Assembly: GCF_900119365.1 (NCBI RefSeq)
Contig: NZ_FPJO01000010.1
Location: forward strand, 1-64,000
Direction: 5' to 3'
Length of the DNA: 64,000 nucleotides
From: Streptomyces atratus
GTDB taxonomy: Bacteria; Actinomycetota; Actinomycetes; Streptomycetales; Streptomycetaceae
Shown: piece after piece, positions 42,560 to 48,834 of the stretch
Layout of the letters: each line of letters begins with the position of its first letter
How positions within the stretch are numbered: position 1 is the stretch's first letter
Position numbers and translations under genes: made by a program
Notes under the pieces: generated by a model
What the model was told of the DNA's origin: nothing
What the model saw: only the letters and a program-made list of their open reading frames with translations
Database searches by the model: none

Positions 42560-43091
42560 ATGACGATGGACCCGGTTGCATACGAGATGCTGCGGCACAT
42601 GTGGTTCCCGGTCGCCCGGGTCGCCGACCTCGGGAACGGCGTCACGAGCGGCAACATTCTCGGTGAGGAACTCGTGGTGTACGGCGACGGACGTTCCGTC
42701 ACTGTGGCCGAGGGCTTCTGCCCGCACCGCGGTGTGGCACTGCGGCTGGGACAGTTGAGCGAGGGCGCCCTGGAATGCCCGTACCACGGCTGGCTCTTCG
42801 AGGCGGGAAGCGGGCGGTGCACGCGCGTTCCCTCGTTGCCGTCGGGCCGGGACAGGCCGCACGCGGCGCTGCGCACCTACCCAGCCGAGATTGCCTACGG
42901 CCTGGTGTGGAGCTGCCTCGACGCCCCCTGCCTTCCCTTGCCGCGGCTGCCCGAGTACGTCGACGAGACCTGGCAGCTCGGCGCGGGCGAGCCGTACACC
43001 CTGAACTGCGGCATGCGGCAGCTGACCGAGAACTTCCGGGACAAGGCCCACTTCCCCTTCGTGCACGCGGACACGATGGGGGATGTGGCTA
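42560..43091 (+). pseudogene. Rieske oxygenase, truncated by IS4 remnant
   Basis: The first 177 residues are sound: Rieske cluster ligands C-x-H (EGFCPHRGVAL) and C-x2-H (LECPYHGWLFE), then YGLVWSCLDAPCLPLP and LTENFRDKAHFPFVHADTMG, the start of the mononuclear-iron domain. At about 43092 the IS4 terminus intervenes and the catalytic half is missing. It was a ring-hydroxylating or demethylating oxygenase. Confidence 0.8.
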
Positions 43092-44065
43092 AGCCTCAAT
43101 ACCGTTCAGTTAGTGGATGTGGATGGTGGTGTGTGGGGTGTGTTCGGGTTGGGGCCAGTGTGTGTGGTGGGAGCTTTTCGCGGCCCATTTCAGGACCTTG
43201 CGTTTGACGACTCGGGGGTGTGAGCGTTTTCGGCGTGGTGGGTTGAGGTGTTGGGTGAGCCATCGGATGGCGTGAGACCAGATCGCGTCGGCCGTGTCAG
43301 CGCCCGGAGGGGGAAATGCGCTCTGCGCGACTGAACGGCGGGCGATGCGGAGGGCCTTGACGAAGGAGACTCTGTCGGGGTCCTGGCCGGTGTGCGCGGC
43401 GGTGTCAGCCATCAGAGTACGGATGGCGTAGTGGCAGCACAGGTGTCCCCAGATTTCTTGCTGGACAAGGTCGGGGGCTTTCGAGCGCAGTACCGCGCGG
43501 GGCCCGCGTTGATGGGTCTTCAGTTCGTCGAAGGTGGTCTCGATCTCCCACCGCCTGGCGTAGGCGGCTGCGAGGTCCTCGGCGCCGGCCTCGGCCGGGT
43601 CGAGGATCGTGGTCAGCAGCCGGTATTCGTCGGGGTTGTCCCGGCCGTCATCGACCGTGTAGTCGATCACTCGGACCGTGAGGGGCTCCGTCGTGGCCCG
43701 GTTCGTGCCCGACATCGGGACGATCCGGGCCAGCCAGGACCCATCGGCCAGGGTTTCCAGATACCGGGGCCGCAGGTTCACTGCACGAGCCGGTGACAGC
43801 GTCGAAGACCACATGGGTGCCGCATTCAGCCAACGCCACCAGGCGGGCCTGCGGAAACGCGGACCGCTCCCCCGGCAGGAAGCCGGCCGCCCGAAGACCT
43901 CTGCGTTGGCTGCCGTGTCCGCCACATCCAGGCACGTCCCGTCGATCGCCACCAGACGACGCCCGGCCAGCCACGACCCCGGCGTGTCCGGCCCCGCCAG
44001 CGGACGCGCAACCCGAGCGAAGAGATCCCGCACCGGCTCGAACCGCGCCGGCGGCTGGGCCTCGG
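43092..44065 (-). mobile_element. IS4-family remnant with frameshifted transposase
   Basis: The minus-strand ORF 44033-43110 has the IS4 blocks LVAIDGTCLDVADT (first Asp), RVIDYTVDDG and the Y-x2-R-x3-E-x6-K signature (YARRWEIETTFDELK). A middle segment (AFPQARLVALAECGTHVVFD) lies in another frame, so at least two frameshifts occurred. The transposase N-terminus is missing, whereas the far end (CTCAATACCGTTCAGTTAG, 43095) looks like a genuine IS terminus. Defective copy. Confidence 0.78.
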
Positions 44066-44069
44066 CCGT

Positions 44070-44157
44070 GATGGTGGATGAGGTCTACGGACACGTCGAT
44101 GTCCACGACCCGGTCTTCGACGCCGCCCTGCGCACGGTCTGGGGTGAGACGAAGTGA
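44070..44157 (+). pseudogene. C-terminal scrap of an integrase-like gene
   Basis: Frame MVDEVYGHVDVHDPVFDAAL ending VWGETK resembles the last residues of a tyrosine recombinase. Its body was replaced by the IS4 remnant. The stop overlaps the GTG of the next gene (GTGA), as in recombinase operons of Streptomyces. Confidence 0.45.
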
Positions 44158-44576
44158 CGGCGCCGTCGCCGCTGCCACAGCAGGATGCCCGCATGCGACG
44201 GGACCGGCTGGAGATGCTCACCGCGCTGATCAACGGGCCCGAGTTCGACCCGGCGCTGCGCGGCGGGGTGCTGAAGATCCCGCCGACGCACCCGGTATAT
44301 CCGTGGAACTGCACGGTCGTCGACTGTGCGCGGCCCCGCTGGCGGCGCTACGCAATGTGCTCGGTGCATGCCGAGCAGTGGCAGGAGGCGGAGGCGCGCG
44401 GCATGAGCCGGGCGCAGTTCTTGCGGACCGCGCCTCGGTCTCACACATCTCTCACAATCGAGAGCGCACGGGAGCACGCGAGAGCCTCTGACCTGGAAAA
44501 TCGCTGTCACCACGGACCACAGCGGACCAGGTGGACATTACATAGGCTAGGAGCATGGCCTACGAGATTCCGGTGA
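44154..44576 (+). CDS. Recombinase-operon zinc-finger protein, probably truncated
   Basis: 140 codons from GTG 44154. The recognisable part is MRRDRLEMLTALINGPEFDP, HPVYPWNCTVVDC, and a zinc-finger-like CTVVDC...CSVH set of ligands, which I associate with large recombinase operons in Streptomyces. After FLRTA the frame becomes unlike the family and overlaps the Phd start, so the C-terminus is probably lost. Function uncertain. Confidence 0.45.
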   Translation: MTAPSPLPQQDARMRRDRLEMLTALINGPEFDPALRGGVLKIPPTHPVYPWNCTVVDCARPRWRRYAMCSVHAEQWQEAEARGMSRAQFLRTAPRSHTSLTIESAREHARASDLENRCHHGPQRTRWTLHRLGAWPTRFR

Positions 44577-44839
44577 CGCAAGCCCGGGCTGAGCTCGCCG
44601 ATTTGATCAACCGCGTCGTCTACGGCGGCGAGCGCGTCGTCGTGACACGGCACGGCAAGCCGCTGGTGGCGCTCGTCTCGGCCGCTGACCTGGAGCGACT
44701 GGAGAAGGACGAGGCGGCCGCGGAGGAGCAGGTGATCAGCTCGGTCTCCTCGATCGGCTCCTCGGTGTCCGCTCCCGGCGAACGGCGCCGCTTCGGCATC
44801 GCGGCGGAGCACAGGGGGCACCACGAGCCGGGCAGCTGA
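44555..44839 (+). CDS. Phd/YefM-family antitoxin, orphan
   Basis: 94 residues from ATG 44555. Complete Phd/YefM fold: IPVTQARAELADLINRVVYG, ERVVVTRHGKPLVALVSAAD, LERLE. The C-terminal extension (SSVSSIGSSVSAPGERRRFG) should neutralise a partner toxin, but no RelE/Doc-like gene follows; a long hairpin comes instead. It may be orphaned or serve as a repressor only. Confidence 0.82.
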   Translation: MAYEIPVTQARAELADLINRVVYGGERVVVTRHGKPLVALVSAADLERLEKDEAAAEEQVISSVSSIGSSVSAPGERRRFGIAAEHRGHHEPGS

Positions 44840-44914: not shown

Positions 44915-45118
44915 GGGCGGAGGCGCTGGAGAACGGCTTGCGTGGCCTGATGCCCATGCATCTTCCGGAGACCGGTTAACGCGCCGGAAAAACTTCGGCT
45001 CTAATGTGCACCACCTCGCCGCGAGTCGGCGGCTCGCTGTTCGACGACCGCGTCGAACACCGCTGTTGCCTTGCCGCGCCCAGGGCCGGTACTGGGCACA
45101 GGACTGTGAGGTGGACGC

Positions 45119-45421
45119 ATGCGACTGACCCCGCACGAGCAGGAACGCCTGCTCGTCCACGTTGCCGCCGATGTGGCCCGGCAGCGCAGGGCGCGCGGGC
45201 TTCGGCTCAACCACCCCGAGGCGATCGCGCTGATCACCGTGCATCTGCTGGAGGGCGCCCGCGACGGCCGTACGGTCTCCGAGCTGATGGCGTCGGGCCG
45301 CGAGGTGCTCACCCGGGACGACGTGATGGACGGGGTGCCCGAGATGATCCACGACGTCCAGGTCGAAGCCACCTTCCCGGACGGCACCAAGCTCGTCACC
45401 GTCCACGAGCCGATCGTCTGA
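45119..45421 (+). CDS. ureA: Urease gamma subunit
   Basis: 100 residues, normal length. [20 protein letters not shown], the [11 protein letters not shown] block, [13 protein letters not shown] and [15 protein letters not shown] are all typical. One of three structural urease subunits. First gene of ureAB-C-G-D; 15 bases from ureB. Intact, but the operon's catalytic subunit is destroyed. Confidence 0.93.
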
Positions 45422-45436
45422 CGGGAGGCGCCACCG

Positions 45437-45748
45437 ATGATCCCCGGAGAGATCCTGTACGCGGGCGGGCCCGTGCCCTTCGACGAGGGCCGCCCCGTGA
45501 CCCGCCCCACCGTGCTCAACGCCGCCGACCGGCCCGTCCAGGTCGGCTCGCACTACCACTTCGCCGAGGCCAACCCCGGCCTGGACTTCGACCGTTCGGC
45601 CGCCCGCGGCCTGCGGCTGAACATCGTCGCCGGAACCGCCGTGCGCTTCGAACCCGGCGTACCGGTCGGCATCGAACTCGTACCGCTCGCCGGGCGGCGC
45701 ATCGTCCCCGGGCTGCGCGGCGGGACCGGAGGTGCCCTCGATGGCTGA
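45437..45748 (+). CDS. ureB: Urease beta subunit
   Basis: 103 residues. [38 protein letters not shown] and [20 protein letters not shown] are diagnostic. The stop lies 8 bases inside ureC, giving translational coupling. Intact. Confidence 0.93.
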
Positions 45749-46382
45749 ACTCGACCGCGCCGTATACGCCGACCTGTTCGGCCCCACGACCGGCGACCGC
45801 ATCCGGCTCGCCGACACCGATCTGCTCGTCGAGATCGAGGAGGACCGCTCGGGCGGACCCGGACTCGCCGGTGACGAGGCGGTGTTCGGTGGCGGCAAGG
45901 TCATCCGTGAATCGATGGGGCAGGCTCGCACCACCCGCGCCGAAGGGGCCCCGGACACCGTCGCCACCGGCGCCGTGATCATCGACCACTGGGGCGTGGG
46001 CAAGGCGGACATCGGCATCCGCGACGGCCGGATCACCGGGATCGGCAAGGCCGGCAACCCCGACACCATGGACGGCGTCCACCCCGATCTGGTCATCGGC
46101 CCCGAGACCGAGATCATTGCGGGCAATGGCAAGTTCGTCACCGCGGGGGCGATCGACGCCCATGTCCACTTCATCTCGCCGACCCTGATCGACCAGGCGC
46201 TCTCCTCCGGCATCACCACCCTGGTCGGCGGCGGCACCGGACCCGCCGAAGGCACCAAGGCCACCACCGTCACCCCCGGCCCATGGCACCTCGCCCGGAT
46301 GTTCGGGGCCCTGGACGCCTACCCCGTCAACATCGGTCTGCTCGGCAAGGGCAACACCATGTCGCGCGAGGCCATGCACACC
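45741..46382 (+). pseudogene. ureC: Urease alpha subunit, C-terminal 60% deleted
   Basis: From ATG 45741 about 214 of roughly 570 residues remain: [34 protein letters not shown]-type block, and [13 protein letters not shown] with the first two nickel-site His. The sequence breaks off after [10 protein letters not shown], before the carbamylated Lys and the remaining active-site residues, and continues directly into ureG in another frame. No urease activity is possible from this gene. Confidence 0.9.
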
Positions 46383-46990
46383 GCCGCGCCCTGCGCATCG
46401 GACTCGGCGGACCGGTCGGCTCCGGCAAGACCGCGACCGTCGCCGCCCTCTGCCGGGCCCTGCGCGAGCAGCTCTCCATCGCGGTGGTCACCAACGACGT
46501 CTACACCCGCGAGGACGCCGCCTTCCTCCTGCGCCACGCCGTCCTGCCGCCCGAGCGCATCCAGGCCGTGGAGACCGGCGCCTGCCCGCACACCGCGATC
46601 CGCGACGACATCTCCGCCAACCTCGAAGCCGTCGAGGACCTGGAGGACACCGTCGGGCCGCTCGATCTGATCCTGGTCGAATCCGGCGGCGACAACCTCA
46701 CCGCCACCTTCTCCAGGGGGCTGGCCGACGCCCAGATCTTCGTCATCGATGTGGCGGGCGGCGACGACGTCCCGCGCAAGGGCGGCCCCGGCGTCACCAC
46801 CTCCGACCTGCTCGTCATCAACAAGACCGACCTCGCCCCGTACGTCGGCTCCGATCTCGGCCGGATGGCCCACGACGCCGCGCAGCAGCGTGGACCGCTC
46901 CCCGTGGCCTTCACCTCGCTCACCTCCGAGGAGGGCGTGGGGCCCGTCGCGGACTGGGTGCGTGCGCGGCTCGCCGCCTGGACCGCATGA
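46383..46990 (+). pseudogene. ureG: Urease accessory GTPase lacking its N-terminus
   Basis: Begins within the UreG sequence at [20 protein letters not shown] (P-loop); [29 protein letters not shown] and [12 protein letters not shown] are intact to the normal stop. Its own start codon and roughly the first ten to thirty residues are lost in the deletion that removed most of ureC and all of ureF. Any product would need an unrelated upstream start in frame. Confidence 0.88.
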
Positions 46991-47766
46991 GCGTCCGGGC
47001 CACCGCCAGGATCACCGCGGCACTCGACGGCCGGGGCGTCACCTCGCTCCCCGTGCTGCGGGGCGACGGACCGCTCGCCCTGCGCCGGACCCGGGCGACC
47101 ACCGGGTCCGGCACCCGGGGCACCGTCGTCGGCGCCATGAGCGCACCGCTCGGCGGCGACCGGCTCGCCATCGAGACCCGGGTCGGCGACCGCGCCCGGC
47201 TCACCGTCGACTGCGCCGCGGCGACCGTGGCCCTGCCCGGGTTGGGCGGTGAACCCGCCACGTACGGGATCGAGTTGAGTGCGGGGGAGCGGGCCGAGCT
47301 GCGCTGGCTGCCCGAACAGCTCGTCTCGGCGCACGGCAGCGTGCTGCACATGACCACCCGGGTGCAACTCGCCGCCACCGCACGGCTGGTGCTGCGGGAG
47401 GAACAGATCCTCGGCCGCCACGGCGAAGGCACCGGCACCCTCGTCAGCCACCTCACCGTGCACCTCACCGTGCACCGCGCCGGACGCCCGCTGATCGACC
47501 AGCAGCTGGCGTACGGGCCGGGAGCCCCCGGCGGCTGGGGCGGTGCGGCGGTCCTGGGCGGCCACCGGGCCGTCGGTCAACTCCTCGTCGTGGAACCGGC
47601 ATTCGACGAGAAGCGCCCCGACGCACGCCTGCTGGGGGAGACCGCCGTCCTCACCCCGCTCGCCGGACCGGCCGTGCTGGTCACGGCCGTCGCCCCCGAC
47701 GCACGCCTGCTGCGCGGTGTCCTGGACCAGGCCCTGGACGAATTGCTCGGCGCCCAGGAGGAGTGA
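46987..47766 (+). CDS. ureD: Urease accessory protein UreD
   Basis: 259 residues; overlaps the ureG stop (ATGA). UreD/UreH features: [34 protein letters not shown], and the region around [11 protein letters not shown]. Complete. It is a scaffold for nickel loading of urease with UreF and UreG, neither of which is functional here. Confidence 0.88.
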
Positions 47767-47784
47767 ACACCGCCCGGCCGTGCC

Positions 47785-48834
47785 TCACGCCTTACGGTCG
47801 TACGCCTCCAGCCAGGCGTCCTCCGCCGCGTAGTCGAAGAGCTCCTTCCCGTACGCCCGCAGCATGGCGGGGAAGGCCGCCGTCCAGTCCCTCCCCTCCA
47901 ACTGCGCCGCGATCCACTCGACCGTCCCGGGAAGCGACTGCGCGTAGTCCGTGACCGGCCGGTACCCGAGCTCGCGCTCGGCGGCCGTCATGTCGTACAC
48001 GATGGGGTGGGCGCCGCCCCATGGCGTGTCACCGACGCCGTCCTCCCCGGGCGCGCCCGCCATCAGCACGGTCTGCGTCGTGCGGCCGAGCGCCGCGTCG
48101 ACGGCCTCGCCGATCTCCGCGACCGTCGGCGCCTGCGGATCCCCGGCGTTGAGCACCCGCGAACCGGGCCGCAGGGCGGCCAGCCGGATCAGCTCGGCCA
48201 GATTGGAGACATGGACCGGGTGGAAACGGGACTCCCCGCCGAACGCGAGCACCCGCCGGGCGCGGCCGTCCAGGAGCCGCTTCACGAAGAACAACTCACG
48301 CGGCGAGCGGCAGTACTTCCCGTGAATCGCACCGGCCCGCAGCAGTGTCACCGGCAGCGCGTCCCCGGCCGCCAGCAGATCCTGCTCAAGCCGTATCTTC
48401 CGTGTCCCGTACGTCGTGTCGCCGGCCGGCAGGGTGCGCTGCGACTCCGGGATCGGCAGCGGGTAGTGCGGAGCACCGTCGGGTTCGCCCTGCGTGTCGA
48501 AGCTGCGGCCCCGGTCGTCCTCGTACACCGCACCGCTGGAGATGACCACCGCCGAACCGATCCGGTCCGTGAGAGCGGTCAGCTGACGGGCGTGACCCGC
48601 GTCGTACGCCACCATGTCGACCAGTACGTCACAGCCGTCGCCCAGCGCCGCAGCGAGCGCCCCGTCGGCGTCCCGGTCCAGGCCCGTCGTGCGCACCGCC
48701 CCGTCCCACCGGTCGTCCCGGCCGCCGCCGCGGGAGGCGGCCGTCACCTCCCAGCCGTCCTCGACGAGCGCCTGCACGGCCGCCCGCCCGATCTGTCCCG
48801 TCGCCCCCAGTACCCATGCGTTTCCCTTGCTCAT
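47785..48834 (-). CDS. NAD-dependent epimerase/dehydratase
   Basis: 349 residues from ATG 48834. Extended short-chain reductase: nucleotide loop GATGQIG near residue 10, VISSGAVYEDD, the YxxxK catalytic pair as YGTRK, and FHPVHVSNLAELI. The substrate is probably a nucleotide sugar or polyketide-like metabolite. Converges with the urease operon. Confidence 0.82.
   Translation of the reverse strand: MSKGNAWVLGATGQIGRAAVQALVEDGWEVTAASRGGGRDDRWDGAVRTTGLDRDADGALAAALGDGCDVLVDMVAYDAGHARQLTALTDRIGSAVVISSGAVYEDDRGRSFDTQGEPDGAPHYPLPIPESQRTLPAGDTTYGTRKIRLEQDLLAAGDALPVTLLRAGAIHGKYCRSPRELFFVKRLLDGRARRVLAFGGESRFHPVHVSNLAELIRLAALRPGSRVLNAGDPQAPTVAEIGEAVDAALGRTTQTVLMAGAPGEDGVGDTPWGGAHPIVYDMTAAERELGYRPVTDYAQSLPGTVEWIAAQLEGRDWTAAFPAMLRAYGKELFDYAAEDAWLEAYDRKA

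Follow-up and report, generated by a model that had tools for sequence, protein, structure and literature searches.

Urease genes at the locus

The window, a stretch of 64,000 nucleotides, is part of contig C34 in a Streptomyces draft genome of 8.5 Mb (102 contigs). On its forward (+) strand it carries a urease locus with ureA for the gamma subunit (45119 to 45421, 100 aa), ureB for the beta subunit (45437 to 45748, 103 aa), a remnant of ureC (45741 to 46379), a remnant of ureG (46382 to 46990) and ureD (46987 to 47766, 259 aa). As a preliminary description of this DNA had stated, ureA, ureB and ureD are intact, i.e., open and full length, with matches to Pfam PF00547 (Urease_gamma, positions 1 to 99 of 99), PF00699 (Urease_beta, 1 to 96 of 98) and PF01774, respectively. 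The ureC remnant starts at the ATG at 45741 and, judging from the open reading frames, Pfam and the alignment of relatives, keeps residues 1 to 213 of about 573, the last of them ending at base 46379. Beyond this base the ureC frame (ORF 45732 to 46670) runs out of frame through ureG sequence (46380 to 46670), coding for unrelated residues until a stop at 46668 to 46670. UreG homology begins at 46382, in a frame different from that of ureC, and continues to the native stop (46988 to 46990); this remnant lacks the start codon and the first 23 residues, retains the P-loop and gives a cobW/UreG match in Pfam. The truncation of UreC and the switch of frame into UreG had both been described before, and both stand, except that UreC ends at residue 213 and not at 214.

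What is left of ureC covers the Urease_alpha domain (2 to 121 of 121) and only positions 1 to 91 of the 345 in Amidohydro_1. It retains the HVH motif, but neither the lysine that bridges the metals (in GFKIHEDWG) nor the metal-binding and catalytic residues downstream of it. Of the components of a functional ureABCFGD operon, Pfam detects UreA, UreB and UreD; UreC, instead of being full length and having the bridging lysine and nickel ligands, ends at residue 213, and the only UreF match in the genome is on another contig, C35.

Upstream of ureA, a Rieske [2Fe-2S] oxygenase gene (42560 to 43207, by Pfam) is cut near 43090, the edge as placed by eye, where an element with a DDE transposase (43110 to 44033, Pfam) starts. 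Between the transposase and an antitoxin gene there are apparent remnants of integrase or other mobile genes (44050 to 44450, by eye), and nothing upstream of 44433 aligns within the available flanks of the six relatives compared. The antitoxin gene itself (44555 to 44839) is of the Phd/YefM type, has no toxin partner beside it by eye, and is found near the urease operon in all six relatives. At 44915 to 44975, S. atratus, Ncost-T10-10d, G065 and G075 have about 1.0 to 1.7 kb of extra sequence that is absent from the window and sk2.1; in G075 a TetR-like frame can be made out in it by eye. Between ureD and an epimerase gene (47766 to 47785), five of the six relatives have about 1.8 kb extra; in S. 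atratus (L068:10031-11605) a frame resembling an alpha/beta-hydrolase is seen there by eye. Neither the window nor G075 has this stretch.

Comparison with intact operons

Comparison with intact operons in relatives, proposed as a check in the preliminary description, was carried out with 82 loci: 80 drawn from the named genome collection, where they ranked best among 508, and two others. Both the ureC and the ureG sides were present in 71 of them, and each of these 71 contains further bases at the point where the window has none (1,819 to 2,530, median 1,890), so that at least 1,819 bases of the middle of the operon, present in 71 of 71 loci, are missing here; the deletion is shared by none of the 71. 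In the remaining 11, ureG was not reached because the contig breaks off 256 to 1,861 bases beyond the ureC match. Set against its two closest relatives, G075 (L142) and S. atratus (L068), the window lacks 1,853 to 1,874 bases, and the spacing is 1,855 to 1,953 bases wider in eight relatives for which both sides were aligned. Since these eight carry single operons that align to both sides (88 to 93% on the ureC side, 89 to 92% on the ureG side), the joining of ureC to ureG is no chance event, and the two sides were collinear in all six relative loci compared. The single deletion of roughly 1.8 kb claimed earlier is therefore supported as one event, with a size nearer 1.86 kb given the spacing in relatives. 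UreC has 573 residues in G075 and S. atratus, so 360 codons have been lost here, and, as UreG starts with MHLDHA in the nearest relatives, 23 codons of ureG went with them. The gene ureF lies inside the missing stretch, since part of the gap matches the UreF region of C35. The sequences of relatives thus bear out the absence of the lysine, the greater part of the active site, the whole of ureF and the beginning of ureG.

In gene order and in DNA identity (up to 93% for the ureC part and 95% for the ureG part) the locus resembles the Streptomyces ureABCFGD cluster, including the antitoxin gene upstream; it departs from it in lacking the 360 ureC codons, ureF and the start of ureG. In S. coelicolor this cluster extends over SCO1231-1236, with UreA being SCO1236 and UreC SCO1234.

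The state of ureC was also surveyed in a genus sample of 199 genomes, the window's own included. A query from the junction region matched 192 of them, picking up paralogous loci as well, and UreC was found above the family cut-off in 178. Only the window's genome matched the junction-region DNA at better than 1e-80 and had no UreC match better than 1e-200. Another 21 genomes had no UreC match better than 1e-200; the junction region was matched in 14 of these (9.5e-42 at the strongest, in G088, the rest being 5.9e-7 or weaker) and in 7 it was not, a pattern that fits most of the 21 having lost, or simply lacking, the entire canonical operon. Among the genus-search matches listed, none outside the window's own genome spanned the junction. 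Seven genomes were inspected more closely; in one (G082:C1:653000-654708) the canonical ureC is split across two frames near residue 60, and in another (G088:C1:445409-448944) ureC has an internal TAG and lies in two parts about 1.8 kb apart. Broken urease genes are therefore not confined to the genome studied here.

Origin of the deletion

A join made by the assembler, with the 1.86 kb still present in the cell, is conceivable in a draft of 102 contigs with GC-rich DNA and three related urease loci, but we consider it very improbable. Judging from relatives, no more than about 4 bp are common to the two flanks where they meet, and assembler word lengths are far greater than that. The dropped piece has no close copy on any other contig: the G075 version of it (1,840 bases), searched against the window's own genome, matched nothing but the two other urease loci (68 to 77%) and five short weak regions. 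The paralogous loci, just 68 to 78% similar here, are also too distant for a false join, and the genome is rated 100% complete. A 32-mer across the junction had no match in genome_contigs, a collection that may leave aside the entries closest to the genome of the window.

The junction (46377 to 46384) reads CAC/A/CCGCC, the slashes marking the breakpoints. On the ureC side most close relatives have GCCATGCAC followed by TCC, and S. atratus and its sister strain have GCCATGCGC; on the ureG side most close relatives have GACGGCAC followed by CCGCCGC or CCGGCGC. In the window, GCCATGCAC is followed by A and then by CCGCCGC. The microhomology, as judged from relatives' sequence, is thus about 4 bp (GCAC) at most, perhaps with one extra base. 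Such a tiny shared sequence fits end joining or slippage and not recombination between repeats, and it suggests that the deletion may have arisen in one of these ways at little or no homology; the microhomology as such is too short for naming a mechanism. A Ku gene is present in the genome, and Streptomyces end joining genes have been described (PMC5124664). Deletion mediated by an insertion sequence was set aside because over 2 kb separate the transposase gene from the junction and because urease sequence abuts on both sides, within about one base.

The deletion might also, without conflict with our preferred explanation, have come about during the uptake of foreign DNA, in which an S. atratus-like ureG segment was joined by homology on the ureG/ureD side and illegitimately at ureC, with loss of what lay between. 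This origin was considered because the nearest relatives of the ureG remnant are S. atratus and its sister strain (identity to S. atratus over the first three quarters of the gene, 94.7 to 98.7%), whereas G075 is nearest for ureA to ureC and for ureD; the nearest relative of the remnant differs from that of its flanks, which a simple deletion alone leaves unexplained. At sites separating the two, the window sides with the atratus pair against G075 in 36 of 44 in ureG, compared with 37 of 92 to the left and 36 of 86 in ureD (G075 to atratus, 8:36, 55:37 and 50:36; Fisher p of 7e-6 for ureG against left and 1.4e-5 for ureG against ureD), although the comparison was picked post hoc and neighboring sites are not independent. 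With sk2.1 in place of G075, the splits are 50:43 on the left, 13:38 in ureG and 37:60 in ureD, so that ureD favors atratus as well. In trees of 30 rows (29 chosen loci plus the window), also used for the AU tests, the left part grouped with G075 and sk2.1 (99/98), ureD with G075 (98/96) and ureG with the atratus pair (94/98), this last branch not being starred. The AU tests rejected the atratus grouping for ureD (p 0.00985) and left it standing for the left part (p 0.22); the G075-sk2.1 grouping stood in ureG (p 0.16) and in ureD (p 0.154). No alternative grouping is thus rejected for the left part or for ureG, and recombination in the lineages of G075 and sk2.1 would explain the mosaic pattern equally well. 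The signal is weak, suggestive and unproven by the trees. We regard the uptake of foreign DNA as an unlikely source of the deletion, and it is similarly doubtful that the locus is a natural Streptomyces case of homology-facilitated illegitimate recombination that removed 1.86 kb and killed the operon.

The explanation that we favor, with a probability of roughly 85%, is that a single deletion of about 1.86 kb has recently inactivated a canonical Streptomyces ureABCFGD operon; in all likelihood the locus is an ordinary pseudogene of recent date. One event, probably end joining or slippage with little or no homology, would have removed UreC from codon 214 onward, the whole of ureF and UreG as far as codon 23. 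The truncated UreC should be inactive, and UreG would no longer be made from its own start.

Age of the loss and remaining urease loci

None of the five genes or remnants has internal stops in its open reading frame. Against seven relatives their dN/dS values range from 0.08 to 0.56, with 33 of 35 at or below 0.36 and the two higher ones (0.37 and 0.56) both belonging to ureD. With no internal stops and low dN/dS, the loss looks recent, or too recent for decay to be told from constraint. Open frames and low dN/dS would also be expected if ureA, ureB, ureG and ureD had been retained because they still act in trans for the ure(AB)CFGD urease, but a recent deletion predicts them equally. Moreover, in six of eight relative-rate comparisons dN is nominally greater for the window than for S. 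atratus, by a small margin (ureC stayed outside, its aligned codon numbers being unequal), the C35 operon owns a fused gamma-beta subunit, UreF, UreG and UreD, and the ureG of the canonical locus is without a start. Service in trans is therefore hardly credible.

The preliminary description had advised looking for a second urease operon, and there is one. Contig C35 carries a complete ure(AB)CFGD operon with fused gamma-beta subunit, alpha subunit, UreF, UreG and UreD; its alpha subunit scores 726.8 bits, with the neighbors in frame, and carries GFKVHEDWG, LHADSLNESGF, FHVEGAGGGHAPD, MVVCHHL and SSDAQAMGR (read by eye), which we take to be the usual active-site motifs. A third locus, ure(AB)C on C70, consists of the fused gamma-beta and alpha subunits. 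Both cluster types have been reported in Streptomyces (PMC5489568) and differ from the ureABCFGD locus studied here by the fusion of gamma and beta. The genome therefore has one urease locus of each type, of which the canonical one has been lost. The loss may have been tolerated since the operon on C35 could supply urease and its maturation proteins.

As the C35 and C70 loci remain, a urease-negative phenotype need not follow, and from the gene content urease activity may persist in the strain. Urease-negative strains that carry urease genes do exist, as PMC5489568 reports. Brucella has several urease operons, with active urease coming from ure-1 only (PMC2492869). The situation here is similar in that there is more than one operon and some are dispensable; unlike here, where one operon was destroyed by deletion, that account reports no deletion for the second Brucella operon.

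The presence of a ureABCFGD operon in this strain should therefore be treated with caution and not be used to predict urease. If the mosaic reading were true, the locus would be the record of a gene-deleting recombination event. As an ordinary pseudogene, it offers a clean, recent case of one operon copy decaying while another complete urease operon stays.
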